61,093 nucleotides of DNA from Rhodobiaceae bacterium. GTDB lineage: Bacteria > Pseudomonadota > Alphaproteobacteria > MED-G09. Below are positions 25,411 to 51,500 of the stretch, one piece after another. The first letter of the stretch is position 1, and every line of letters begins with the position of its first letter. The translations under genes and the position numbers were made by a program. The stretch spans positions 1-61,093 of the forward strand of contig PBRS01000045.1 of assembly GCA_002726005.1 (NCBI GenBank). Direction: 5' to 3'. Below the pieces are notes generated by a model. The model had not been told where the DNA came from. It made no database searches and saw only the letters and a program-made list of their open reading frames with translations.

Positions 25411-27777
25411 ATGAAAAACTTACATAAACTAGTATTTTTGTTTGCGTCTTTTTTAGTTGCAAGCACATTTACTTCAACAGGTTATTCTCAAGATGAGAGT
25501 GGATCAAGTCTTCAAATTGAAGAAATTATTGTTACAGCTCAAAAAAGAGAACAATCTGCACAAGATGTTCCAATATCAATTACAGCTATGGACGAAGAAC
25601 TTCTAAGTTCAACAATTAGAAATATTTCAGATGTTACTGGATATGCTCCTAATGTTGTTCTTGGCGGTGAAGGGCGTAGAGGTGGTGCTACAGCTATACA
25701 GATTAGAGGTATTGCTGCTGCTACTAATACTGATAATACTTTTGACTCGCCAATCGCTGTTAATGTTGATGGCATTTATCTCGGTCAGAACGCTGGATCA
25801 TTATTAGATAATTTTGATATGGAAAGAATTGAAATTCTAAGAGGTCCGCAAGGTACTCTATTTGGTAAAAATACAACTGGTGGTGTGATAAATGTTATCA
25901 GAACTCGTCCAACTGGAGAGTTTGGTGGTAAAGTAAAAGCAACTATCGGTGAAGATGGGCGTCAAGAATTAAGAGCTGTAATAAATACTAAATTATCAGA
26001 TAATTTAGCAGCTAAATTCTTTGCAACTTCTAGACAAAGTGATGGCTGGATTCCAAATATTACTATTGGTGGCCATAATGGTGAAGAAGATTACCAAGCA
26101 TATGGTGTAACACTATTATTTACACCAAATGATAGATTTGAAGCTCTTTTAACTTTAGAATCAATGCATGATAAAAGTGCATTAAAAGCTTATAACCAAA
26201 ACTTTAATGTTGCGCCAGGAGTAATACCTCCTCCACCTCCAGGTCCAAATGTAACGGATTTCAGTGGTGGGCTATTAGCTTGTGCGATTTACGCTGAAGC
26301 TTGTAGAACTTCTCCTGATCAACTTCCTTATGCTGAAAATGATACACAGCATGATGCCGATGTTGAGACAGATGCAATTACACTTCAAATGACTTATGAG
26401 TTAAATGAGAATGTAACACTTAAATACATTGGTGGTTATAGAGATGTAAGTGAGGATCGTATTTATGACTATGATGGATCTGCAGCTCCTTTCATTACAC
26501 TTGAAAGATGGAATGTTTATGATCAAACAAGTCATGAGTTTCAACTTAATGGCTCATTTGCTAATGTTGAATTAACTGCTGGTCTTTATATGTTTGAAAA
26601 AGAACATACTCAGGATTGGGCAACAGGCGGAACATTCTGGGGAGTTCTTTTTGGAGGAGCTTTATCTGCTCCAGGTCAATGGGAACTATGTCAGGACTTT
26701 TTTGAGCCTACTTATTCCGTAGCTTGTGATCCTACAGAACCAGCCTATCCTACAGGTACTCTTTATCAAATCCTTTATTCTACACAAAAAACAGAATCTA
26801 AGGCTGCATATGCTCAAGCTGATTGGGCTGTGAATGACCGATGGACACTTACAGGTGGCGTTAGATATACTGAAGAAGAAAAGGATTTCTATGCCGGTCA
26901 GGCTTATCTTGCTGGTCATGATATAGGTGAAGGACGTAACTTCCCTGATTATGCTGATCTTCAAAAGAAATGGGATGATACATCTATTAAAGTAGGCGCA
27001 TCATATCAAATCAATGACGATGCTCTTGCATACCTAACATATACAGAAGGCTTTCACTCAGGTGGTTTCTATGCTGTTGTTCAGCAAACAAAACATATGA
27101 GAAGAAACCAATATGATCCTGAATATTCAGAAAGCACTGAGTTAGGTATCAAAACTTTCTTATTTGATAGAAGAGTTCAACTTAATGCAGCCTACTTCAT
27201 GAATGATTATGCTGGTAAGCAAGAAGAATCAACGCAAGTTGATCCTCAAACAAAAACTGTTGCTTCCTTCTGGTCTAATGTTGCTGCTGCAGAATATGAA
27301 GGCTTTGAAATCGATATTCAATGGCTTGTAAATGAGTATCTACGTGTTTTTGCTAATTACGGAACTCTAGATGCTTCATATCAAGGTTTCTTTACAGATA
27401 TCAATGAAAGTGATGGAATTACAAAAATTGAATCTGCTGATTTCTTAACACCAAGATTTGCTCCTGAAGAATCATGGGGTATTGGCGGAACATTATCTAT
27501 TCCTGCTGGAAATGGCACTGTAGATGTTTTTGCAAAATACAATAGAATTGGTGAGCAAGAAACAGATCTTCTTAATGCTGCTCTCGCTAGAGCGCCAGAA
27601 ACAGAAAATCTGACAGCATCTATTGGATACTTCCAAGATGGTTGGTCAATTGTTGCATATGGTAGAAATCTTACTGATGAACAATATGAAGTTGTTGATC
27701 CGATTATGCCTCTATTCGCAATTGGTACAATTAATGAAGGACGTAAGTTTGGAGTTGAATTAACTTACGAATTCTAA
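25411..27777 (+). CDS. TonB-dependent outer-membrane receptor (1 of 3)
   Basis: Outer-membrane active transporter of 788 residues. A signal peptide (about 1-26, ending GYSQ) is followed by the TonB-box-like IEEIIVTAQKR, a plug domain with VNVDGIYLGQN and the ERIEILRGPQGTLFGKNTTGGVINV signature (about 145-170), then a 22-strand-type beta barrel ending in Phe (LTYEF). Two Cys pairs occur in probable extracellular loops (LLACAIYAEAC; ELCQDFF...VAC). Sequence is clearly paralogous to the third receptor of the cluster. The ligand is unknown; this group includes receptors for complex carbohydrates, siderophores and vitamin-like compounds. Confidence 0.94.
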   Translation: MKNLHKLVFLFASFLVASTFTSTGYSQDESGSSLQIEEIIVTAQKREQSAQDVPISITAMDEELLSSTIRNISDVTGYAPNVVLGGEGRRGGATAIQIRGIAAATNTDNTFDSPIAVNVDGIYLGQNAGSLLDNFDMERIEILRGPQGTLFGKNTTGGVINVIRTRPTGEFGGKVKATIGEDGRQELRAVINTKLSDNLAAKFFATSRQSDGWIPNITIGGHNGEEDYQAYGVTLLFTPNDRFEALLTLESMHDKSALKAYNQNFNVAPGVIPPPPPGPNVTDFSGGLLACAIYAEACRTSPDQLPYAENDTQHDADVETDAITLQMTYELNENVTLKYIGGYRDVSEDRIYDYDGSAAPFITLERWNVYDQTSHEFQLNGSFANVELTAGLYMFEKEHTQDWATGGTFWGVLFGGALSAPGQWELCQDFFEPTYSVACDPTEPAYPTGTLYQILYSTQKTESKAAYAQADWAVNDRWTLTGGVRYTEEEKDFYAGQAYLAGHDIGEGRNFPDYADLQKKWDDTSIKVGASYQINDDALAYLTYTEGFHSGGFYAVVQQTKHMRRNQYDPEYSESTELGIKTFLFDRRVQLNAAYFMNDYAGKQEESTQVDPQTKTVASFWSNVAAAEYEGFEIDIQWLVNEYLRVFANYGTLDASYQGFFTDINESDGITKIESADFLTPRFAPEESWGIGGTLSIPAGNGTVDVFAKYNRIGEQETDLLNAALARAPETENLTASIGYFQDGWSIVAYGRNLTDEQYEVVDPIMPLFAIGTINEGRKFGVELTYEF

Positions 27778-27800
27778 TTAATAATTAAATAATTAATTAA

Positions 27801-27830
27801 AAAGGGCCATTTCAATTGGCCCTTTTTTTT
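27801..27830 (+). terminator. Rho-independent terminator after TonB receptor 1
   Basis: Stem AAAGGGCCA/TGGCCCTTT (27801-27809 with 27817-27825), 7-base loop, then Ts to 27830. A weaker AT-rich hairpin with a T-run follows at 27846-27868. The remaining gap up to 27947 shows no other clear element. Confidence 0.93.
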
Positions 27831-27947
27831 ATCCACAACTTAAAAATCAATAAATATTGATCTTTTTTTAAAAATGGTCATTAATATGATTGTAGATTTA
27901 TAAAATAAAAATAAAAAAAATTTAAATTACAAAAATTTGAGGAAAAA

Positions 27948-30401
27948 ATGAAAACATTCAACCGCCTTTTAATAGGCTCTTCGTTAATGATATTATCATT
28001 AACTTCTCTCTCTTCTTATGCTCAAGAAGTTGAAAATTCTGGAATAGAAGAAATTATAGTAACTGCAAGACAGCAAGATGAAAGCTTACAAGATGTTCCT
28101 GTTGCTGTTTCGGTGATGTCAGAAGTTGATCTTGATCGTTATAATATAACAAGCTTAACTGATGCTGCAAAAATGGTTCCGAATTTTAGAATTAATGCTG
28201 GAGGTTCTGGAAATGGATCCAATATTTATTTAAGAGGAATTGGCTCGAGCTCAATCTCTGCCGCTTTTGATCAATCAGTTGCAATTAATATCGACGGTGT
28301 AGTGGTTAATAGAGGGCGATTTATTCACAATGCTTATCTTGATATGTCACAAATCGAAGTTCTTAAAGGACCTCAATCTTTATACTTCGGTAAATCTGCG
28401 ACGGCTGGGGTGATATCAATCAAAACAAATGACCCTACGGATGAATTTGAAGCTGAATTTGGTGTTGGTGTTGAAACTGAGCACGAAACAACATTTTTTG
28501 AAGGAGTTATATCTGGACCAATAAGTGATAATTTACTAGCTAGACTTGCATTTGGTACAAGTGAAACAGATGAACTTCGTGAAAATTATTCATTCGGTAA
28601 TGATCCTATGCCTTATGGAAACGGTACTAAACCTTTTTTTGGTGAGGAGTCAACAAATGCAAGATTAACTCTTCTATGGACACCCACTGAAACCTTAACG
28701 GCAAAATTAAAGTATCAATATTCAAAATATGAAAATGATGGTGGTGGAACAATGTATCAAGAGGAATGGTGCGCTGATGGACTTGGTAATCCTCTTGCTC
28801 ATCAAATAACAGGAGTTCCAGGTGCAACAGCTGCTTTCACAACTAGGGTTGGTGTTGATGATTGTGTCGTCAATGGTAACACTTCTAAGATTAATTTAGA
28901 GCCTGGATTAAGGGCTGGACTTCCTTATGGTTTTGATAATGGAGAGCCTGGACTAGATCAAGAAACTGATTTGATTTCTTTACAAGTAAATTGGGATATT
29001 AATGATGATCTTTCTTTAACATCCATTACAAGTATCGTTGAATTAGATCATGTTGAATTAGATGACTATAGTTATGGTGCAGGTGTTTATGGTGGTTTGC
29101 ATAGAAATGTATACGAACATACATCGCAAGAGTTAAGGCTTACTAGTGATTTTGATGGAGCATTTAACTTCCAAGCAGGTTTATTCGTTCAAGAAATCGA
29201 GCAAAGATTTGATGCTCATCAATATGCTTTTAACCTTCCAATTACACCAAATATATTTGGTCCAGTTTTAGCGGTTTTTGGTGCTTTTGATCCAACATCT
29301 GCCCTTGTAGGACCAGACCCAGCTACAGGAAATGCATATGACTATAATAAAGATCATTATCTTGATACTGATGTAAGGTCAGCTAGTATTGCTATTTATG
29401 TTGATGTCAATGAAAGAACTGAATTATCATTTGGTGCACGATATACTGAAGAAGAAAAGACAGGATATATTAAGATTCCTTATATTCATGCTGCTGCTGC
29501 TGCTTTTGGTTTTGGCGCTCCTCCTTTAATTGAAGGTTTAGAGTTTGAGGATGACAATCTATCTCCTGAAGTTGCTATAAATTACTATATCAATGAAGAT
29601 ACTAGTATTTATGTTGCTTATAAAAAAGCGTTTAAATCTGGTGGAATTGATAATAGTGCCTTACCAACAGCATCTATTAATCCTTTATCTCCTACTTTCG
29701 AAGGCTTCGATGCATTGATTTATGATTCTGAAGAAGTAGATGGCTTTGAAATTGGTTTAAAATCTAATCTTCTTGATAATAATATGAGATTAAACGCTAC
29801 ATACTATAAGTATGAATACACTAATCTTCAGGTCCAACTTTTCGATGCGGCAATTATCCAGTTCAGCACTTTTAATGCAGGTGCAGTTGAAACTGAGGGA
29901 TTTGAAGCAGATTTACTCTGGTATACAGATATACCTGGACTATCTTTAAGGGGACAATTTGCATGGACAGATGCTACTAATACTGGTGATTTTATAACTC
30001 CTGGCGGAGAAAATCTTAAAGGTAGTAAAAGATCTTATAGCCCTGAAATAGCTGGATCCTTTGGTTTAAGTTATGACTCTGGACTATCAAATGGTTGGAG
30101 ATATAATATTTCGACTGATGCAAGATATAGTGATGAATACGGTTGGGGAACTTACATAGATTCACCAATGCAGGATTCTTTCTGGATTAATGATATTGCA
30201 TTAAGCTTATACTCCGAAGATGGTAAACATTCGTTTAATCTAATTGGAAGAAACCTTGGTGATGAAATCGTTATTATTACAGGTGGTGCAATTCCAGGAA
30301 GAATTTCAACACAAACTGGTACTTCTGCTCTTATTCAAGACCAAGCTGTAACAACTCAACAAGGTAAGACTTTTACATTGCAATATAAATATAAAATGTA
30401 A
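27948..30401 (+). CDS. TonB-dependent outer-membrane receptor (2 of 3)
   Basis: An 817-residue receptor with a signal peptide (about 1-25, ending SYAQ), TonB-box region GIEEIIVTARQQ, plug domain with VAINIDGVVVNRGRF and the variant signature SQIEVLKGPQSLYFGKSATAGVISI, then the beta barrel. It belongs to a different subgroup from receptors 1 and 3, reading LKGPQSLYFGKS where they read LRGPQGTLFGKN. The chain ends QYKYKM, with Met where outer-membrane barrels normally end in Phe or Trp. A GAGG ribosome binding site is present. The ligand is unknown. Confidence 0.93.
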   Translation: MKTFNRLLIGSSLMILSLTSLSSYAQEVENSGIEEIIVTARQQDESLQDVPVAVSVMSEVDLDRYNITSLTDAAKMVPNFRINAGGSGNGSNIYLRGIGSSSISAAFDQSVAINIDGVVVNRGRFIHNAYLDMSQIEVLKGPQSLYFGKSATAGVISIKTNDPTDEFEAEFGVGVETEHETTFFEGVISGPISDNLLARLAFGTSETDELRENYSFGNDPMPYGNGTKPFFGEESTNARLTLLWTPTETLTAKLKYQYSKYENDGGGTMYQEEWCADGLGNPLAHQITGVPGATAAFTTRVGVDDCVVNGNTSKINLEPGLRAGLPYGFDNGEPGLDQETDLISLQVNWDINDDLSLTSITSIVELDHVELDDYSYGAGVYGGLHRNVYEHTSQELRLTSDFDGAFNFQAGLFVQEIEQRFDAHQYAFNLPITPNIFGPVLAVFGAFDPTSALVGPDPATGNAYDYNKDHYLDTDVRSASIAIYVDVNERTELSFGARYTEEEKTGYIKIPYIHAAAAAFGFGAPPLIEGLEFEDDNLSPEVAINYYINEDTSIYVAYKKAFKSGGIDNSALPTASINPLSPTFEGFDALIYDSEEVDGFEIGLKSNLLDNNMRLNATYYKYEYTNLQVQLFDAAIIQFSTFNAGAVETEGFEADLLWYTDIPGLSLRGQFAWTDATNTGDFITPGGENLKGSKRSYSPEIAGSFGLSYDSGLSNGWRYNISTDARYSDEYGWGTYIDSPMQDSFWINDIALSLYSEDGKHSFNLIGRNLGDEIVIITGGAIPGRISTQTGTSALIQDQAVTTQQGKTFTLQYKYKM

Positions 30402-30414
30402 TTAAAAGGAAAAC

Positions 30415-30447
30415 AAAAAAAGGCCGCAATTTACGGCCTTTTTTTTT
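30415..30447 (+). terminator. Rho-independent terminator after TonB receptor 2
   Basis: The A-run plus AGGCCG (to 30426) pairs with CGGCCT plus the T-run (30434-30447) around a short CAATTTA-type loop. It isolates receptor 2 from receptor 3. The rest of the gap to 30553 is AT-rich with no other clear element. Confidence 0.93.
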
Positions 30448-30553
30448 GTGGTTTAATTTATTTATAAAATAATTGCTATTAATTAAATAAATAGTAATAT
30501 TTTTGTTATATTGAAAAAATAAAAATAAGAATTTTTTTTCGGGGAGATAAATA

Positions 30554-32953
30554 ATGTCTAATTTATTCAGTCAAATTAAATATGTTTTTTTTGGTTTATG
30601 CTTTTCTTTAATTTTACCAATGTTCTTAAACACTGCACTTGCACAAGAATCATCAAGTTTAGAAATTGAAGAAATAATTGTTACAGCCCAAAAAAGAGAG
30701 GAATCTCTTCAGGATGTTCCCATAGCTATAACCGCTATAACTGAACAGCTTGAAGATGCTACAATACGTAACATTGCCGATTTAAGTGCATTTGCACCAA
30801 ATGTTATTATTGGTGAAACATCAGTTCGGGCAAGAGGTTCGGCTATTACCATCAGAGGTATTAACTCAAGTGAATCTGATAAATCATTTGATCCCAAAAT
30901 TCTTGTTGAATTAGATGGCGTTGCTATTGGTACGAACTCTGGCCAAGTTATTGAAAACTTTGACTTAGAAAGAATTGAGATTCTTAGGGGTCCTCAAGGT
31001 ACTCTTTTCGGTAAAAATACTAATGGTGGTGTTATTAGAGTTATGAGAAGCAAGCCCACTGGTGAATTTGGCGGTAAAGTTCAAGCTACTCTTGGTGATA
31101 ATGGACAAGAAGAATTAAGAGCTATTATTAATACCTCGATTATTGATGATACTCTTGCTCTTAAACTTTTTGGAACATCTATCAAAAATGATGGTCACCT
31201 TTACAATACCTATGTGCAAACAGATGGACCAAAGAAAGATTATACTAATTATGGCGCATCATTATTATTTACAACAGATAGATTTGAAGCCCATTTAACT
31301 CTTGAGACATATGATGATGGCAGTGATGTTGGCGCATGGACTAATAAAAATGATGCAACAACTGTGATCTGTAATGTATATGATCCTCTTTATCCTGATG
31401 GCACACCAAAAACAGGTGCTGCATTAGGACCTGTAATGGCTTTCAACCCTGGAATGCACAATACATGCGAATCTAATGATAAAACTGCTAGCCCAACAAC
31501 ATATAACACTAATAGCACTAATCCGGGTCAATTTGATACCGATGCAATTACACTAAATATGTCGTATGAATTAAATGATAACAGTAGGCTAGTTTATACT
31601 GGTGGTTATCGTGACGAAGAAGAAGATACTTACTGGGAATATGACGGAACTCCAATGCCATGGATTTGGATTGAGGCAACAAATTATTATGAGCAAGAAA
31701 GTCATGAAATAAGATATGAAACTGTCCAAGATAATTATAATCTAACAGTTGGGGCTTATTTTTGGGACAGCACATATCATCAGGACTGGATTACTAGAGG
31801 TTCATTTTGGTCAACTCTAGTTCCGCCATTTTTATATGAAGCAATGCTTGTAGGTGCTGTTGGGGCTTTAAGAGCTGAACCGGGTCTTGAAAATGGACTT
31901 GGACCAAATTATGTTCAAAAGCTTCTTCAAGAACAACAAACTGAATCACAAGCAGTATTTGCAAATCTTGATTATCAAGTAAACGATAAAGTAATGCTTA
32001 CTTTTGGCATTAGATATACTGAGGAAGAAAAAGCATTTATTGGTGGGCAGTCTTATTTCACAACAAATGAAAGAGCATACATAAATAACTTTGCAAATAT
32101 TGGACTTCCTGGCGAAGCCAGCATAGCTAATCTTGTAAAGAAATATGATGAAATTTCAGGAAAAATTGGCTTAACTTATCAAGTTAGTGAAGATGTAATG
32201 ACATATGTAACTTACTCAGAAGGCTTCCAAAGCGGTGGTTTCTTCGGAAGAAATCAGAATGTTCAAGATTTCAAGAATACATATGATCCTGAATTTGCAA
32301 GAACACTTTCAGTTGGTGTAAAAAGTTTACTTCTTGATAAAAGAGTCCAGCTAAATGCTGAGTATTTTAGAAATGACTTTGAAGATAAGCAGGAAGACAC
32401 TATTAAACTTGATCCAACTACAAGAACAGTTGTTACAGTAATTGATAATGTGGCCGGTGTTCTTTATGAAGGATTAGAAGTCGAAATGAGAGCTTTAGTT
32501 TCCGAAAATTTAGAAGCATTTGTGAATGTAGGTTTTCTTGATGCCGAATATGATGGCTTTATAGCTGATCTAGATGGAGCTAATGCTGAAGGTTTAATCG
32601 AGCCTACAAATAATGATGCATTAACACCTAAATATTCACCAGAAGTAACTTTCTCTGTTGGAGGAACATATACTGCGACGGTTGGTCCGGGTGAATTAAG
32701 TATATTTGCAAAATATAGCTTTATTGATGAGCAGGAATCTACCACTACAAATATTGCAGTGGGTAAAGTTCCTTCTCAAGATCGAGTAGATGCATCAGTA
32801 ACATATAGTTGGTCAAATTATAGAATTTCTGCTTTTGGTAGAAACTTAACAGATGAAATTGTTGCTCCTGTTAGAGATATATCAAGCTTGATGATTTTTG
32901 GTTCACCAACTGTTGGAAAAGTATTTGGTGTAAACCTTACAGCAGAATTTTAA
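30554..32953 (+). CDS. TonB-dependent outer-membrane receptor (3 of 3)
   Basis: A 799-residue receptor with a signal peptide (about 1-30, ending ALAQ), TonB-box region EIEEIIVTAQKRE, a plug with VELDGVAIGTNSG and the signature ERIEILRGPQGTLFGKNTNGGVIRV, and a barrel ending NLTAEF with the expected terminal Phe. It matches receptor 1 closely through the plug (TIRNI, PTGEFGGKV, EGFxSGGF), so the two are tandem-type paralogues that diverged mainly in extracellular loops. A CGGGGAG ribosome binding site is 8 bases before the ATG. Receptors 1 and 3 may bind related ligands. Confidence 0.94.
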   Translation: MSNLFSQIKYVFFGLCFSLILPMFLNTALAQESSSLEIEEIIVTAQKREESLQDVPIAITAITEQLEDATIRNIADLSAFAPNVIIGETSVRARGSAITIRGINSSESDKSFDPKILVELDGVAIGTNSGQVIENFDLERIEILRGPQGTLFGKNTNGGVIRVMRSKPTGEFGGKVQATLGDNGQEELRAIINTSIIDDTLALKLFGTSIKNDGHLYNTYVQTDGPKKDYTNYGASLLFTTDRFEAHLTLETYDDGSDVGAWTNKNDATTVICNVYDPLYPDGTPKTGAALGPVMAFNPGMHNTCESNDKTASPTTYNTNSTNPGQFDTDAITLNMSYELNDNSRLVYTGGYRDEEEDTYWEYDGTPMPWIWIEATNYYEQESHEIRYETVQDNYNLTVGAYFWDSTYHQDWITRGSFWSTLVPPFLYEAMLVGAVGALRAEPGLENGLGPNYVQKLLQEQQTESQAVFANLDYQVNDKVMLTFGIRYTEEEKAFIGGQSYFTTNERAYINNFANIGLPGEASIANLVKKYDEISGKIGLTYQVSEDVMTYVTYSEGFQSGGFFGRNQNVQDFKNTYDPEFARTLSVGVKSLLLDKRVQLNAEYFRNDFEDKQEDTIKLDPTTRTVVTVIDNVAGVLYEGLEVEMRALVSENLEAFVNVGFLDAEYDGFIADLDGANAEGLIEPTNNDALTPKYSPEVTFSVGGTYTATVGPGELSIFAKYSFIDEQESTTTNIAVGKVPSQDRVDASVTYSWSNYRISAFGRNLTDEIVAPVRDISSLMIFGSPTVGKVFGVNLTAEF

Positions 32954-45718: not shown

Positions 45719-46657
45719 ATGACAGATAACAATCATTCAAAATTATTAATTCTTGGTTCTGGACCTGCTGGCTATACTGCTGCCATCTATTCTTCAAGAG
45801 CAATGTTAGAGCCTACTCTTCTAACGGGGATTGAACCAGGCGGTCAAATGACAATAACTACAGATGTAGAAAATTATCCAGGTTTTGCAGATATTATTCA
45901 AGGTCCATGGTTAATGGATCAGATGAAAGAACAAGCTATAAGCGTTGGAACAAATATAGTCTTTGATACCATTGTAGATGTCGATTTATCAAATAAACCT
46001 TTTAAATTAAGATCTGACTCAGGAAAAGAATATACATGCGATGCTTTAATCATTGCAACTGGCGCTCAAGCAAAATGGTTAGGGCTAGAATCAGAAAATA
46101 AATTTAAGGGATATGGTGTATCAGCATGTGCAACTTGTGATGGTTTTTTTTATAAAGATAAAACAGTTGTTGTGGTTGGAGGAGGAAACACTGCTGCTGA
46201 AGAAGCAATTTTTTTAACTAACTTTGCAAGTGAGGTTAAATTAATTCATAGAAGAGACTCATTGCGTGCTGAAAAAATTCTTCAAAAAAGATTGGTAGAA
46301 AATAAAAAAATTGAAATCATTTGGGATACAGAAATTACAGAAATAATTGGCGATGAAGATCCCTTAAGTGTAAACCAAGTTGTTTTAAAAAATAAGAAAA
46401 CAAATAGTATAGAGAATCTTAAGGCTGATGGTGTTTTTGTTGCAATTGGACACAGCCCTTCCTCACTAATATTTCAAAATCAATTAGATATGAATGAAGC
46501 GGGTTATATTTTTACTGCGGCAGATTCAACTAAAACAAACATTAATGGTGTTTTTGCAGCTGGTGATGTTACAGATGATAAATATAGACAAGCCGTTACA
46601 GCTGCAGGTATGGGCTGCATGGCAGCACTTGAAGTTGAAGAATATTTATCTGAATAA
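45719..46657 (+). CDS. trxB: Thioredoxin-disulfide reductase
   Basis: NADPH-dependent FAD enzyme that keeps thioredoxin reduced. The 312-residue length is normal. The FAD loop [17 protein letters not shown] is at 13-29, the redox-active CATC at Cys137 and Cys140, the NADPH loop [10 protein letters not shown] near 158-167 and the C-terminal FAD segment [18 protein letters not shown]. All catalytic residues are intact. It follows the ELM1-like gene in a short operon and sits near the Lrp-type regulator, a common arrangement in alphaproteobacteria. Confidence 0.96.
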
Positions 46658-46671
46658 AAAGGAAAAGATTA

Positions 46672-47754
46672 TTGAGCAATACTCCTTTAGCCGAATATTC
46701 AAAACCAAAAAATACAGAATATGAGGAATATGGCGCTTCAAATATATTAAAGAACCTGATTGAATTCTCAATTAATGATAGCGCTAATAAAATTAACATT
46801 AAGATTGAAAGAAATGGCTTAAGCCTAATTGAAATTAAAAATAATGGAAATGGATTAAGCTCAAAAGATCTTGCTGATTCAGTTGAGAATAATTCTGCTA
46901 CCTTAAACAACAATAAGAATATATTTTTGAATTTGTCTAAAATTAGTAATTTAGAAATAATTAGCAAAGAAAAAAACAAAACAAGAGGATCTTTATTAAA
47001 AATTACTAATGATAAAATACAACCAATTAAAGAGTGCTATGCAGATATAGGAACAAAAATATCATTAAAAGATATTTTTTATAATGATAATGAAAAGAGG
47101 ACTAATCCAGATAATTTTATTGAAGATGATATAAAAAATATAATATTTAATTATGCTTTAGCTTTTCCGAATATTGATTTCTTAGCTAAGCTAAATAATA
47201 CATCAATAATTAATGCTCCTATAGAAGATAAACTTTCTAAAGACAAAATAATTTCAAGAATAAGCAAATTATTTGATAATAAAATTGCTAAATCTTTAAT
47301 AAAAGAACAATTAGAAACAGAACAAATAAAAATTAAGATTTATTACAGTAGTAAAAAACAAGTATCGAAAAAGAAGAATAATCAATACATTATTGTAAAC
47401 AATAAGCCAGCAAGATTTTTAGGAATTAAAAGAGCGTTTAATGATATTTACAGGAAGTCGTTCGAAGTTGATGGATATCCATCTTTCTTCATTTTTTTAA
47501 ACTATAATGAAAATTTAGTTGAAAGAAAAAAGGTTGAAAAAATGACAAAAGGGTTAATATTAAAATCATTTTCAAAACAAATATACGAATTTGCTAACGA
47601 AGAAAGGAATAAAAACAATTTAATTAAGTCAGTTTTCAATTTTCACAAAAACTTTCAACTTACTGAATCGAAAAACGGAATAATTATAAAAAATAATAAG
47701 AATAATAAAAAAATTGAAATATCAATTTCAAATATTAAGAATCTTTTTAAATAA
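46672..47754 (+). CDS. Degenerate MutL-like protein lacking ATPase residues and C-terminal domain
   Basis: A 360-residue protein whose order of segments follows the N-terminal half of the mismatch-repair ATPase MutL: ILKNLIEFSINDSANKINI against VKELVENSLDAGATRIDI, SLIEIKNNGNGLSSKDL against KLIRIRDNGCGIKKDEL, KDIFYNDNEKR against LDLFYNTPARR, and YIIVNNKPARF against YCYVNGRMMRD. The residues needed for ATP and magnesium are changed: E. coli Glu29, Asn33 and Asp58 correspond to Asn28, Phe32 and Asn57. The GFRGEAL lid motif and the IAAGEV start are missing, and there is no dimerisation or endonuclease domain. The frame is open throughout. It starts at TTG with AAGGA upstream, directly after trxB. 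This is either a decaying or a repurposed mutL. Confidence 0.7.
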   Translation: MSNTPLAEYSKPKNTEYEEYGASNILKNLIEFSINDSANKINIKIERNGLSLIEIKNNGNGLSSKDLADSVENNSATLNNNKNIFLNLSKISNLEIISKEKNKTRGSLLKITNDKIQPIKECYADIGTKISLKDIFYNDNEKRTNPDNFIEDDIKNIIFNYALAFPNIDFLAKLNNTSIINAPIEDKLSKDKIISRISKLFDNKIAKSLIKEQLETEQIKIKIYYSSKKQVSKKKNNQYIIVNNKPARFLGIKRAFNDIYRKSFEVDGYPSFFIFLNYNENLVERKKVEKMTKGLILKSFSKQIYEFANEERNKNNLIKSVFNFHKNFQLTESKNGIIIKNNKNNKKIEISISNIKNLFK

Positions 47755-47755
47755 T

Positions 47756-48172
47756 TTAATTAATTTTTTTTGATGGAGTATTTATAATTTGTGTTTCAAG
47801 GTTTGCATTAACCTCTTCTACATCACGCATCTCTGAATCCAAAACTTCTTTTATATTTGGTATAGATTCTGCAACATCAGCGCCTGTCATTAAATTAATC
47901 TCTGACTGACTAAAATCTTCTGAACTATTTGAATTATTAAATAATATTGCCTGCAGTTCTCTGCTTGGTTGTTGAGGCGTTGGCCTAACCTCTCCTTCAG
48001 CAGGAGGTCTTAAATTATATTCTGGAGGTATAATTAAATTAGGTTTTGTTAAAATTGTAAATTCATCTGGAGGCATTTTATCAGTACCCAAAACTTTGGC
48101 AAGTTCACTTCCGCAGCTAATTAAAAAGATCGGCGTTAATAAAACTAACATAACTATAAAATTTTTTACCAT
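47756..48172 (-). CDS. DUF3035 lipoprotein (BamF-like)
   Basis: A 138-residue secreted lipoprotein. The signal peptide ends in a lipobox FLISC (Cys20), followed by LAKVLGTDKMPPDEFTILTKP and PPEYNLRPP, the pattern of the alphaproteobacterial DUF3035/BamF family. BamF is a non-essential lipoprotein of the outer-membrane beta-barrel assembly complex in Caulobacter. The tail NIKEVLDSEM also matches. It follows lspA, whose product would mature this lipoprotein, by three bases. In many alphaproteobacteria M16 peptidase genes follow, but here the neighbour is the convergent MutL-like gene. Confidence 0.8.
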   Translation of the reverse strand: MVKNFIVMLVLLTPIFLISCGSELAKVLGTDKMPPDEFTILTKPNLIIPPEYNLRPPAEGEVRPTPQQPSRELQAILFNNSNSSEDFSQSEINLMTGADVAESIPNIKEVLDSEMRDVEEVNANLETQIINTPSKKIN

Positions 48173-48175
48173 AAT

Positions 48176-48670
48176 TTAATTTCCTACATTATTTTTAGAT
48201 AAAATAAATTGGCTAAGAATAAAAAGAATTACCCCTACAACAATAAACATATCTGCAATATTAAATATATACCAAGAAAAACCTCTCGCATGAAGAGAAA
48301 TAAAGTCTACTACTGCACCATATGTAAATCTATCTAATACATTTCCTAGGGCACCTCCGATTATGAAGGATATACTTAGCTTTGAAACAATTGAAGATTC
48401 ATTTCTAATAAAGTTTAAAAGAAAAATTATAATTAAAATGGAAAGTGAAATTAGTATCCATTTCTGAAAATCACCTCCTCCAGAAAATAGACCATAGGAA
48501 ATACCTGTATTAAAAACTAAAATAAAGTCCAAATACTCATTAACGTAAATTTTTTCAACAACACCGTCTTTGAAAATTGATATAATTTTATTTTTACTTA
48601 AGAGATCAATTAAAAAGACACTACTAGATGATAATATAACAACAAGATATTCTTTAATTACCTTTATCAT
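48176..48670 (-). CDS. lspA: Lipoprotein signal peptidase (signal peptidase II)
   Basis: Cleaves signal peptides from diacylglyceryl-prolipoproteins. A 164-residue membrane aspartyl protease with four hydrophobic segments. The catalytic-Asp motifs GGALGNVLDRFTYGAVVDFISLH (read in two parts: GNVLDRF and VVDF) and YIFNIADMFI are intact, and VFNTGISYGLFSGG matches the conserved N-terminal loop. It overlaps the end of ileS by 17 bases, an ordinary arrangement. Normal length. Confidence 0.95.
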   Translation of the reverse strand: MIKVIKEYLVVILSSSSVFLIDLLSKNKIISIFKDGVVEKIYVNEYLDFILVFNTGISYGLFSGGGDFQKWILISLSILIIIFLLNFIRNESSIVSKLSISFIIGGALGNVLDRFTYGAVVDFISLHARGFSWYIFNIADMFIVVGVILFILSQFILSKNNVGN

Positions 48671-51500
48671 TAATTTCTCTCATTACTTCTGCATCACGAA
48701 GACTTAAATCTGGGTATTCCTTGTCCGTCCCCACTTCTGGCAAAATTTTCCAAGATCTACTACATTTATTACCTTCAGCAATATCACATATTACAGCAAC
48801 ATCATTAATTTCATCCAAAGTAAATGCATTTTCAGGACCTTTTTCATTTCTCAACTCTGCTTGAGAAGTGATAAATATCTCAGGTAAATCAATATCTCTT
48901 AATGTATCCGCATAATCATCATTTGAAATAAAAACTATTGGTTTTGCTTCAAGGCTTGAGCCAATCCTTTTTTCTTTTCTTTCAAGCTCAATTGCTCCAG
49001 TAACTACCCTTCGTATTGATCTAATTCTCTCCCATTTTTCAAATAATTCTGAATTATTCCATTCATCTTTAACATTTAAAAATTGCATTTCATGGATAGA
49101 ATTATTTAGGTCAGGAAATCTAGATTTTCTGACTTCTTCAGCAGTAAAACATAAAATTGGAGCAAACCACCTAACCAAATAATTAAAAAGGAGATCAAGA
49201 ACAGTCCTAGTTGATTTTCTGATATTGCTTTTTGGACTGTCGCAGTATAAGGAATCCTTTCTTATGTCAAAATAAAATGAAGAAAGATCAAGGTTTGAAA
49301 AATTTAATAATATTTGAAATACTGATTTTAAATCAAAATTTTCATAAGACTCTCTAACTTCATTATCTATTAAGCAAAGCTTGTGAAGAATATATCTTTC
49401 TAACTCTGGCATATCTTTATAATCTACAACTTCGTCTTCAGAAAAATTATCAAGGTTTCCGAGTAAAAAACGAAAAGTATTTCTAATTTTCCTATAAGAC
49501 TCAACATTTGCTTTCATTATATCCTGACCAACTCTTAGATCATCTGTAAAGTCAGAAGAAACTACCCACAATCTGATAACATCAGCACCATATTGTTGAA
49601 TTAAATCTTCAGGTTTTGTAACATTTCCAAGCGATTTAGATTCTTTTTTTCCATCTTTATCAACTACAAACCCATGAGTTAATACCTTTTTAAATGGAGC
49701 TTTACCTCTTGTTCCGCAACCAACAAGTAACGAAGACTGGAACCAACCACGGTGTTGGTCTGATCCTTCAAGATACAAATCTGCAGGAAAGCCTATTCCT
49801 TGATTTCCCTCTAATACAAAAGCTTGCGTTGACCCTGAGTCAAACCAAACATCTAAAATATCATCAATTTTTTCCCATTCATCAGAATTATATTTTTTAC
49901 CCAGAATTTCTTCTGAAGATAATTCAAACCAAGAATCTGAACCATTTTTTTTAAAATTATTAAATATTCTTTCATTGATTTCTTTATCTTTAAGAATTTC
50001 TCCTGTTTTTTTGTTTAAAAATATTGCTAAAGGTACTCCCCATGCTCTTTGACGTGATATAACCCAATCTGGTCTGTTATCTACCATGGATTTAATTCTA
50101 TTTTTTCCTCTCTTAGGTATCCATTCGACACTCTCGATCTCAGATAAAGATTTATCTCTAAGATTATTTTTTTCCATAGAAATAAACCACTGTGGCGTAT
50201 TTCTAAATAACAAGGGTGCTTTAGATCTCCAACTATGCGGGTATTGATGACGAAGTTTTCCTTTTGCAAATAAAGCATTGCTATTAATTAATTCTCTAAT
50301 TACTGCACCATTACCATCACCGTAAGAACCATCATCCTCATACACTTTTTTTCCAGCAAAAATTTTTACATTTGGCAAATAAACACCTTCATCATCAATC
50401 ATAAAAGGTGCTTCAATCCCATTTTTAGATGCTAATTCGTAATCATCCTGGCCATGACTTGGAGCAATATGCACAAAACCTGTCCCTGTTTCATCAGTTA
50501 CAAACTCACCTTCTAGAAGGGGAATATCAAATTCATACCCGAGAGAATTAAAAGGATGTTTACAAATTAAGTTTTCAATCTCATCAACATTTTGAATAAA
50601 CTTTATTTTAGCTTTGGATGCGCTTTCTAAATTATCTTTAAGAGAATTATTAATAATAATCTTTTCTCCAATTTTTGCCAAACTGCCTTCTTCTATTTCC
50701 ATAACCTCGTAAAGTCCGTATTCATACTTTGAAGAAAAAGCAATTGCTCTATTCGCAGGTATAGTCCATGGGGTTGTTGTCCAGATAAGAATATTAGAGT
50801 CTTTATATGGTTTTTTTTGAGTAATTATAGGAAATTTAACCCAAACAGTTGGTGATACATGTTCTTTATATTCTACCTCAGCCTCAGCCAAAGCAGTTTT
50901 TTCTACAACTGACCACATAACCGGCTTAGATCCACAATACAAATCATCATTCATTAGAAATTTATGAAATTCTCTAACAATAATAGCCTCAGAGTCAAAT
51001 TCCATTGTGGTATAAGGATTACCCCAATCTCCAAAAACTCCTAATCTTCTAAATTCTTTTTTTTGAATATCAATCCATTTTTTTGCAAATAGTCTGCACT
51101 CACTTCTGAATTCATTTATTGGCACTTCTTCCTTTGATTTTCCTTGCTCCCTGTACTGCTCTTCAATCTTCCATTCAATGGGAAGGCCATGACAATCCCA
51201 ACCTGGTCTATAAATTGCGTCAAAACCTGCCATTTGTTTAGATTTTATAATTATATCTTTGAGAATTTTATTTAACGCTGTGCCCATATGCACATTCCCA
51301 TTTGCGTAAGGCGGTCCATCATGAAGAATAAATTTTTCCTTACCTGTAGAAGCTTTTCTTATAGAGCCATAAGTATCAATTTTATCCCAATTATCTAAAA
51401 GCTTAGGTTCATTTTCAGATAATTTAGCTTTCATAGGAAGATCTGTCTTTGGTAAAAGAAGTGTATCCCTATAATCCTTGATATTTTTTTCTTCTGACAT
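48654..51500 (-). CDS. ileS: Isoleucyl-tRNA synthetase
   Basis: Class Ia synthetase charging tRNA-Ile, 948 residues. The catalytic Rossmann fold starts with GPPYANGNVHMGTALNKILK, where the HIGH position reads HMGT (71-74). The editing domain follows, and the KMSKS loop reads KESKS (Lys619-Ser623), with Glu620 where Met is usual. The anticodon-binding helical domain is complete. The C-terminus EGNKCSRSWKILPEVG lacks a full zinc-finger Cys set, as in alphaproteobacterial enzymes. It sits between ribF (one base apart) and lspA. Both signature changes deserve attention but the essential Lys622 is kept. Confidence 0.95.
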   Translation of the reverse strand: MSEEKNIKDYRDTLLLPKTDLPMKAKLSENEPKLLDNWDKIDTYGSIRKASTGKEKFILHDGPPYANGNVHMGTALNKILKDIIIKSKQMAGFDAIYRPGWDCHGLPIEWKIEEQYREQGKSKEEVPINEFRSECRLFAKKWIDIQKKEFRRLGVFGDWGNPYTTMEFDSEAIIVREFHKFLMNDDLYCGSKPVMWSVVEKTALAEAEVEYKEHVSPTVWVKFPIITQKKPYKDSNILIWTTTPWTIPANRAIAFSSKYEYGLYEVMEIEEGSLAKIGEKIIINNSLKDNLESASKAKIKFIQNVDEIENLICKHPFNSLGYEFDIPLLEGEFVTDETGTGFVHIAPSHGQDDYELASKNGIEAPFMIDDEGVYLPNVKIFAGKKVYEDDGSYGDGNGAVIRELINSNALFAKGKLRHQYPHSWRSKAPLLFRNTPQWFISMEKNNLRDKSLSEIESVEWIPKRGKNRIKSMVDNRPDWVISRQRAWGVPLAIFLNKKTGEILKDKEINERIFNNFKKNGSDSWFELSSEEILGKKYNSDEWEKIDDILDVWFDSGSTQAFVLEGNQGIGFPADLYLEGSDQHRGWFQSSLLVGCGTRGKAPFKKVLTHGFVVDKDGKKESKSLGNVTKPEDLIQQYGADVIRLWVVSSDFTDDLRVGQDIMKANVESYRKIRNTFRFLLGNLDNFSEDEVVDYKDMPELERYILHKLCLIDNEVRESYENFDLKSVFQILLNFSNLDLSSFYFDIRKDSLYCDSPKSNIRKSTRTVLDLLFNYLVRWFAPILCFTAEEVRKSRFPDLNNSIHEMQFLNVKDEWNNSELFEKWERIRSIRRVVTGAIELERKEKRIGSSLEAKPIVFISNDDYADTLRDIDLPEIFITSQAELRNEKGPENAFTLDEINDVAVICDIAEGNKCSRSWKILPEVGTDKEYPDLSLRDAEVMREINDKGN

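Follow-up and report, generated by a model that had tools for sequence, protein, structure and literature searches.

MutL is regarded as an ATP-driven matchmaker that connects MutS to the repair machinery, and the helicase UvrD is a known MutL partner. In MutL, Mg, adenine and phosphate are contacted mainly by Glu29, Asn33, Asp58 and Lys79, by the lid and by a loop containing Lys307. GHKL pseudo-ATPases are proteins in which the GHKL fold has been kept after loss of ATPase activity. The N-terminal domain of E. coli MutL binds 3′ resected ends, and its DNA-contacting residues have been described (PMC9226502). In SAR11 subclades Ic and IIa.A, mutS and mutL are reported to be jointly absent (PMC12374537).

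The window analyzed here, 61,093 nucleotides of contig PBRS01000045.1, encodes a protein, called mini-MutL below, that resembles bacterial MutL in domain order, in the predicted fold of its N-terminal half, in its ileS/lspA neighborhood and in a recognizable start of the C-terminal domain. It differs in lacking the ATP-site residues, the lid, the long linker and the DQHAxxE and GQCNHGRP motifs, in its length (360 vs ∼600 residues) and in having no MutS partner in the genome. Like the GHKL pseudo-ATPases, mini-MutL has a GHKL fold without catalytic residues. Its genus (g1) shares with SAR11 Ic and IIa.A membership in the marine Alphaproteobacteria, small genomes and the lack of MutS; however, those subclades reportedly lack both genes, whereas g1 retains a mutL derivative under selection. 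Mini-MutL is a pseudo-ATPase descended from MutL, in a lineage that has no mismatch repair, and for such a protein without MutS no precedent was found in the open literature searched.

The mini-MutL frame consists of 360 codons and a stop, begins with TTG 14 nt past the trxB stop and is preceded by AAGGA at a distance of 8 nt (Table 1), in keeping with the intact frame and ribosome binding site after trxB reported in the preliminary description. Only 1 nt separates its stop from the convergent lipoprotein gene, which rules out a hidden frameshifted C-terminal domain downstream. An assembly artefact was ruled out by the presence of the gene in independent single-cell genomes. In 14 other alphaproteobacterial genomes mutL lies ≤9 kb from ileS on the same strand, and mini-MutL therefore occupies the common mutL locus, but inverted. 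Elsewhere in the window (25411–32953), three large ORFs in succession resemble TonB-dependent receptors.

Table 1. Coordinates of mini-MutL, its parts and its neighbors in the window
Feature	Position	Strand	Remarks
mini-MutL gene	46672..47754	+	360-aa MutL-derived protein, TTG start
Ribosome binding site, AAAGGA region	46658..46663	+	directly 3′ of trxB stop; predicted from sequence
GHKL-type domain, residues 23–165	46738..47166	+	catalytic residues replaced, lid deleted
Asn28 codon, at position of E. coli MutL catalytic Glu29	46753..46755	+	from alignment
Phe32 codon, at position of Mg-binding Asn33	46765..46767	+	from alignment
Asn57 codon, at position of Asp58	46840..46842	+	from alignment
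Second (S5-type) domain, residues 166–283	47167..47520	+	PF01119 match at 197–283; NVHPxK loop after domain deleted
Residues 284–318	47521..47625	+	long helix and short linker instead of usual long linker; omega ∼0.29
C-terminal tail, residues 319–360	47626..47751	+	among best conserved parts between two genera
trxB, upstream gene	45719..46657	+	same strand as mini-MutL gene
Small lipoprotein gene, convergent	47756..48172	-	adjoins trxB in g2, a genus that has lost mutL
lspA and ileS	48176..51500	-	neighbors of mutL in other Alphaproteobacteria

Profile searching and structure prediction, both proposed in the preliminary description, bore out its assignment of GHKL and S5-type domains in MutL order. 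Mini-MutL matched TIGR00585 with 111 bits (E 5.5e-32), below the curated cut-off of 180 bits that a homologue in genome G008, described below, exceeds (272 bits), and matched PF01119 with 39.8 bits (cut-off 26). The PDB sequences matched were MLH1/MutL N-terminal domains, with a best E of 3.4e-12. An AlphaFold2 model built from a 56-sequence alignment had a mean pLDDT of 85, and MutL N-terminal domains ranked first when it was searched with Foldseek (E 9e-24); the input alignment included MutLs, and the fold match thus agrees with the sequence homology without being independent evidence. By these sequence comparisons, the homology to the N-terminal region of MutL is far above chance.

Residues were compared in a 29-sequence alignment that included the MutL of E. 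coli and a further 21 full-length MutLs from Alphaproteobacteria. Where the full-length MutLs of this alignment invariably have Glu29, Asn33, Asp58 and Lys79, all six full-length g1 members carry Asn, Phe, Asn and Leu, respectively, and mini-MutL has lost the lid (residues 92–97, LGFRGE) and the loop that contains Lys307 by deletion. The replacement of the first three residues and the loss of the GFRGEAL lid, as initially described, were thus confirmed. The equivalents of Gly60, Gly62, Gly142 and Thr143 are retained, and those of R22, K159, R162 and R177, DNA-contact positions in E. coli (PMC9226502), are lost. As read from the alignment, every main ATP-contacting element has been lost in g1, and mini-MutL is without the GHKL ATP-site residues and lid of a functional MutL.

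The C-terminal domain had been described as gone. No complete dimerization/endonuclease domain is present and the middle has been cut out, but the 42-residue tail (319–360) matches the first strands of the MutL C-terminal domain and, with weaker support, its last strand and helix. The first block, FHKNFxLxxxxxGIxI vs LHETYIVAQTEDGLVI, beat every one of ∼1000 shuffles (10.7 bits vs a shuffle maximum of 5.0 for the G008 homologue, and 7.6 vs 6.8 for the window protein); in G004, a genome rich in ambiguous bases, this block failed the shuffle test. The last block, IEISISNIKNLF vs VELKLADIEKLF, gave p values of 0.00005–0.02 in a gapless profile test with free offset on four sequences, in which some unrelated C-termini scored higher in absolute terms and the shuffle comparison carries the result. 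HMMER with the extreme C-terminus alone gave no significance. In a 61-residue model the tail was predicted with confidence, and Foldseek returned no significant PDB match for this very short query. The second half of the tail probably derives from the extreme C-terminus of the MutL C-terminal domain, which thus appears to have been gutted and reduced to its ends rather than to be absent.

Among named records, the nearest are single-cell genomes from the PS1 clade/OCS116 cluster, and the genomes studied are those of PS1/OCS116-clade marine Alphaproteobacteria. Eighteen genomes of the order were examined: seven from g1, ten from g2 and one, G008, from g3. MutS1, the MutS_V domain and NucS were found in none of the 18, with positive search controls, and UvrD was found in 15. 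A search for mutS and for a second intact mutL had been suggested at the outset: the former is lacking in all genomes of the order, and none of the latter was found in the window's genome, where the other matches were short hits to GHKL sequence within ORFs unrelated to MutL. NucS was likewise rejected as a substitute for repair, as none was found in the 18 genomes. Mini-MutL does not, then, show the co-occurrence with MutS that marks a MutL. Mismatch repair has been lost in the lineage. That repair is instead intact, with mutS missing merely from draft assemblies, is barely credible: all of the genomes are drafts, but none of the 18 has mutS, six of them being at least 90% complete; 180 of 192 sampled Alphaproteobacteria (≥90% complete) score with the same MutS model; and mini-MutL itself could not support ATP-dependent repair.

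Among the 12 sampled genomes without MutS, eight besides that of the window have no MutL match above a weak GHKL hit, and G100, G181 and G213 keep a MutL that scores as ordinary. G181 (genus g67; 99% complete, 7 contigs) lacks MutS, its congener G082 has MutS, and both have an ordinary-scoring MutL. For G100 and G213, assembly gaps are possible, and one congener of G100 has mutS.

The mini-MutL gene is present in all seven g1 genomes, full length and without stops in six and cut by the contig end in G006. The G008 homologue (393 aa, 38% identical) has the same cut C-terminus and a near-intact ATP site (KELIENSIDAG, DNGKGM and Lys307 kept), with the exception of the lid, which reads GFRGLAL for GFRGEAL (E97 to L). 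No mutL was found in any of the ten g2 genomes; in the nine with an assembled locus, no more than a few bases separate the trxB stop from the convergent lipoprotein gene. An IleS tree with 14 other families as its root placed g3 outside g1 plus g2 (SH-aLRT 96). Together with the gene states of the three genera, this tree, of one gene and made by a quick method, gives the order of events: truncation of MutL before g1 and g3 split, then loss of the ATP site towards g1 and deletion towards g2, with the intermediate stage resting on the single genome G008.

Two further observations concern other Alphaproteobacteria. A MutL match in a 379-aa open frame (G133:C9:25873-26877) may represent a further case of MutL truncation, a frameshift or a frame cut at the end of a contig, and a full-length mutL of another family (L021, G055:C30:69552-71174) is read through one in-frame TGA.

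Selection was estimated with IQ-TREE (GY+F3X4). Omega for mini-MutL was 0.170 in five close genomes and 0.134 in six, with G004 added; fixing omega at 1, with kappa scanned over four values, made the likelihood ∼40 and ∼90 log units worse, respectively, and neutrality was rejected. Neighboring genes gave values (five/six genomes) of 0.03/0.03 for trxB, 0.06/0.04 for ileS, 0.20/0.10 for lspA and 0.11/0.06 for the lipoprotein gene. Within mini-MutL, omega was 0.09/0.04 for residues 73–165, 0.14/0.08 for the tail, 0.29/0.29 for the linker and 0.21/0.37 for the first 22 residues, all segments being below 0.4. Neutral drift simulated to the observed third-position divergence produced a mean of 7 stops for the pair G000–G001 and 15 for G000–G004, and none of 200 runs per pair was free of stops; the observed number is zero. 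Mini-MutL is 63% identical between G000 and G004 vs ∼79%–88% for its neighbors, and this faster evolution indicates that constraint is moderate. The marks of a pseudogene (dN/dS near 1, stops, frameshifts) were not found.

The preliminary description had left two outcomes to be separated by dN/dS and length, loss of repair with a gene that is still unbroken, and retention of a non-ATPase MutL for some other task. The omega values of 0.13–0.17, the near-identical lengths and the absence of stops across g1 disfavor the first and favor retention, with the task itself putative. A dying gene, eroding now that repair is gone, with a frame that is open for lack of time and with g2 as the end point, would account for the absence of MutS, the parts bearing function that are gone already, the deletion in g2 and evolution faster than that of the neighbors. 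Because the ATP-site losses are common to the whole of g1 and hence older than the genus, however, purifying constraint acted after the ATPase was lost, and this is the central argument against decay: since then, synonymous divergence has reached ∼0.9 per site with no stop or frameshift. Simple decay is unlikely.

Purifying selection on the remnant implies that it does something without MutS, ATP hydrolysis or nuclease activity. In the tail, identity is 81% between G000 and G004 and 52% between g1 and G008; with residues 100–140 (49%) and the first GHKL segment (54%), the tail forms the best conserved part between g1 and G008. Identity of G008 to full MutLs is only 22% in the tail and 26% at residues 100–140, and forty g1-invariant residues are common to G008 and rare in other MutLs. 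This conservation, low towards full MutLs, suggests that a role centered on the tail and residues 100–140, which may form a binding surface, had been established by the stage of the truncated ancestor.

In the explanation considered probable, MutL was dismantled stepwise and the remnant was selected, most likely as an ATP-independent adaptor. Mini-MutL would be the product of a mutL passed down vertically in a lineage that lost MutS-based mismatch repair. Removal of the linker and most of the C-terminal (dimerization/endonuclease) domain would have come first and left a GHKL protein that, like the one in g3, could in principle still bind ATP; all main ATP-contacting elements would then have been lost in g1 and the gene deleted in g2. 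The g1 remnant would be a folded adaptor that binds another protein via the residual tail and the strand region 100–140, with UvrD as a candidate partner and no more. Against this explanation, g2 lives without the gene, which is therefore dispensable in relatives, and several E. coli DNA-binding positions are changed, removing one obvious residual function; against UvrD as the partner, g2 keeps UvrD without mini-MutL.

Two other uses of the remnant were weighed, each of low probability. A nucleotide or other ligand could bind non-canonically in the GHKL pocket and work a ligand-gated switch, for which the core fold, the retained glycines and threonine and the strong constraint on residues 73–165 speak; yet with Glu29, Asn33, Asp58 and Lys79 replaced and both the lid and the Lys307 loop deleted, the main Mg, adenine and phosphate contacts of MutL are gone. 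Equally doubtful is that bare dimerization or DNA-end binding was kept and serves, without MutS, to block polymerase or recombination at 3′ ends. The E. coli N-domain does bind such ends, the tail derives from the C-terminal domain and the protein is lysine-rich, but the R22, K159, R162 and R177 equivalents are lost, and blocking in E. coli requires MutS loading and was observed with a nucleotide-bound N-domain dimer (PMC9226502).

On the reading of stepwise dismantling and an adaptor role, a mismatch-repair ATPase would have become a MutS- and ATP-independent protein with a new role, the intermediate (ATP site intact, C-terminus gutted, MutS gone) being alive in a sister genus; for this wider claim the balance is even. 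A MutL fold that is selected after loss of MutS, the nuclease part and the ATPase would mean that the fold can carry another useful function, and mini-MutL is a natural minimal construct for finding it. The living relatives document the order in which a repair pathway was dismantled in small-genome ocean bacteria, an order that bears on their mutation and recombination rates.
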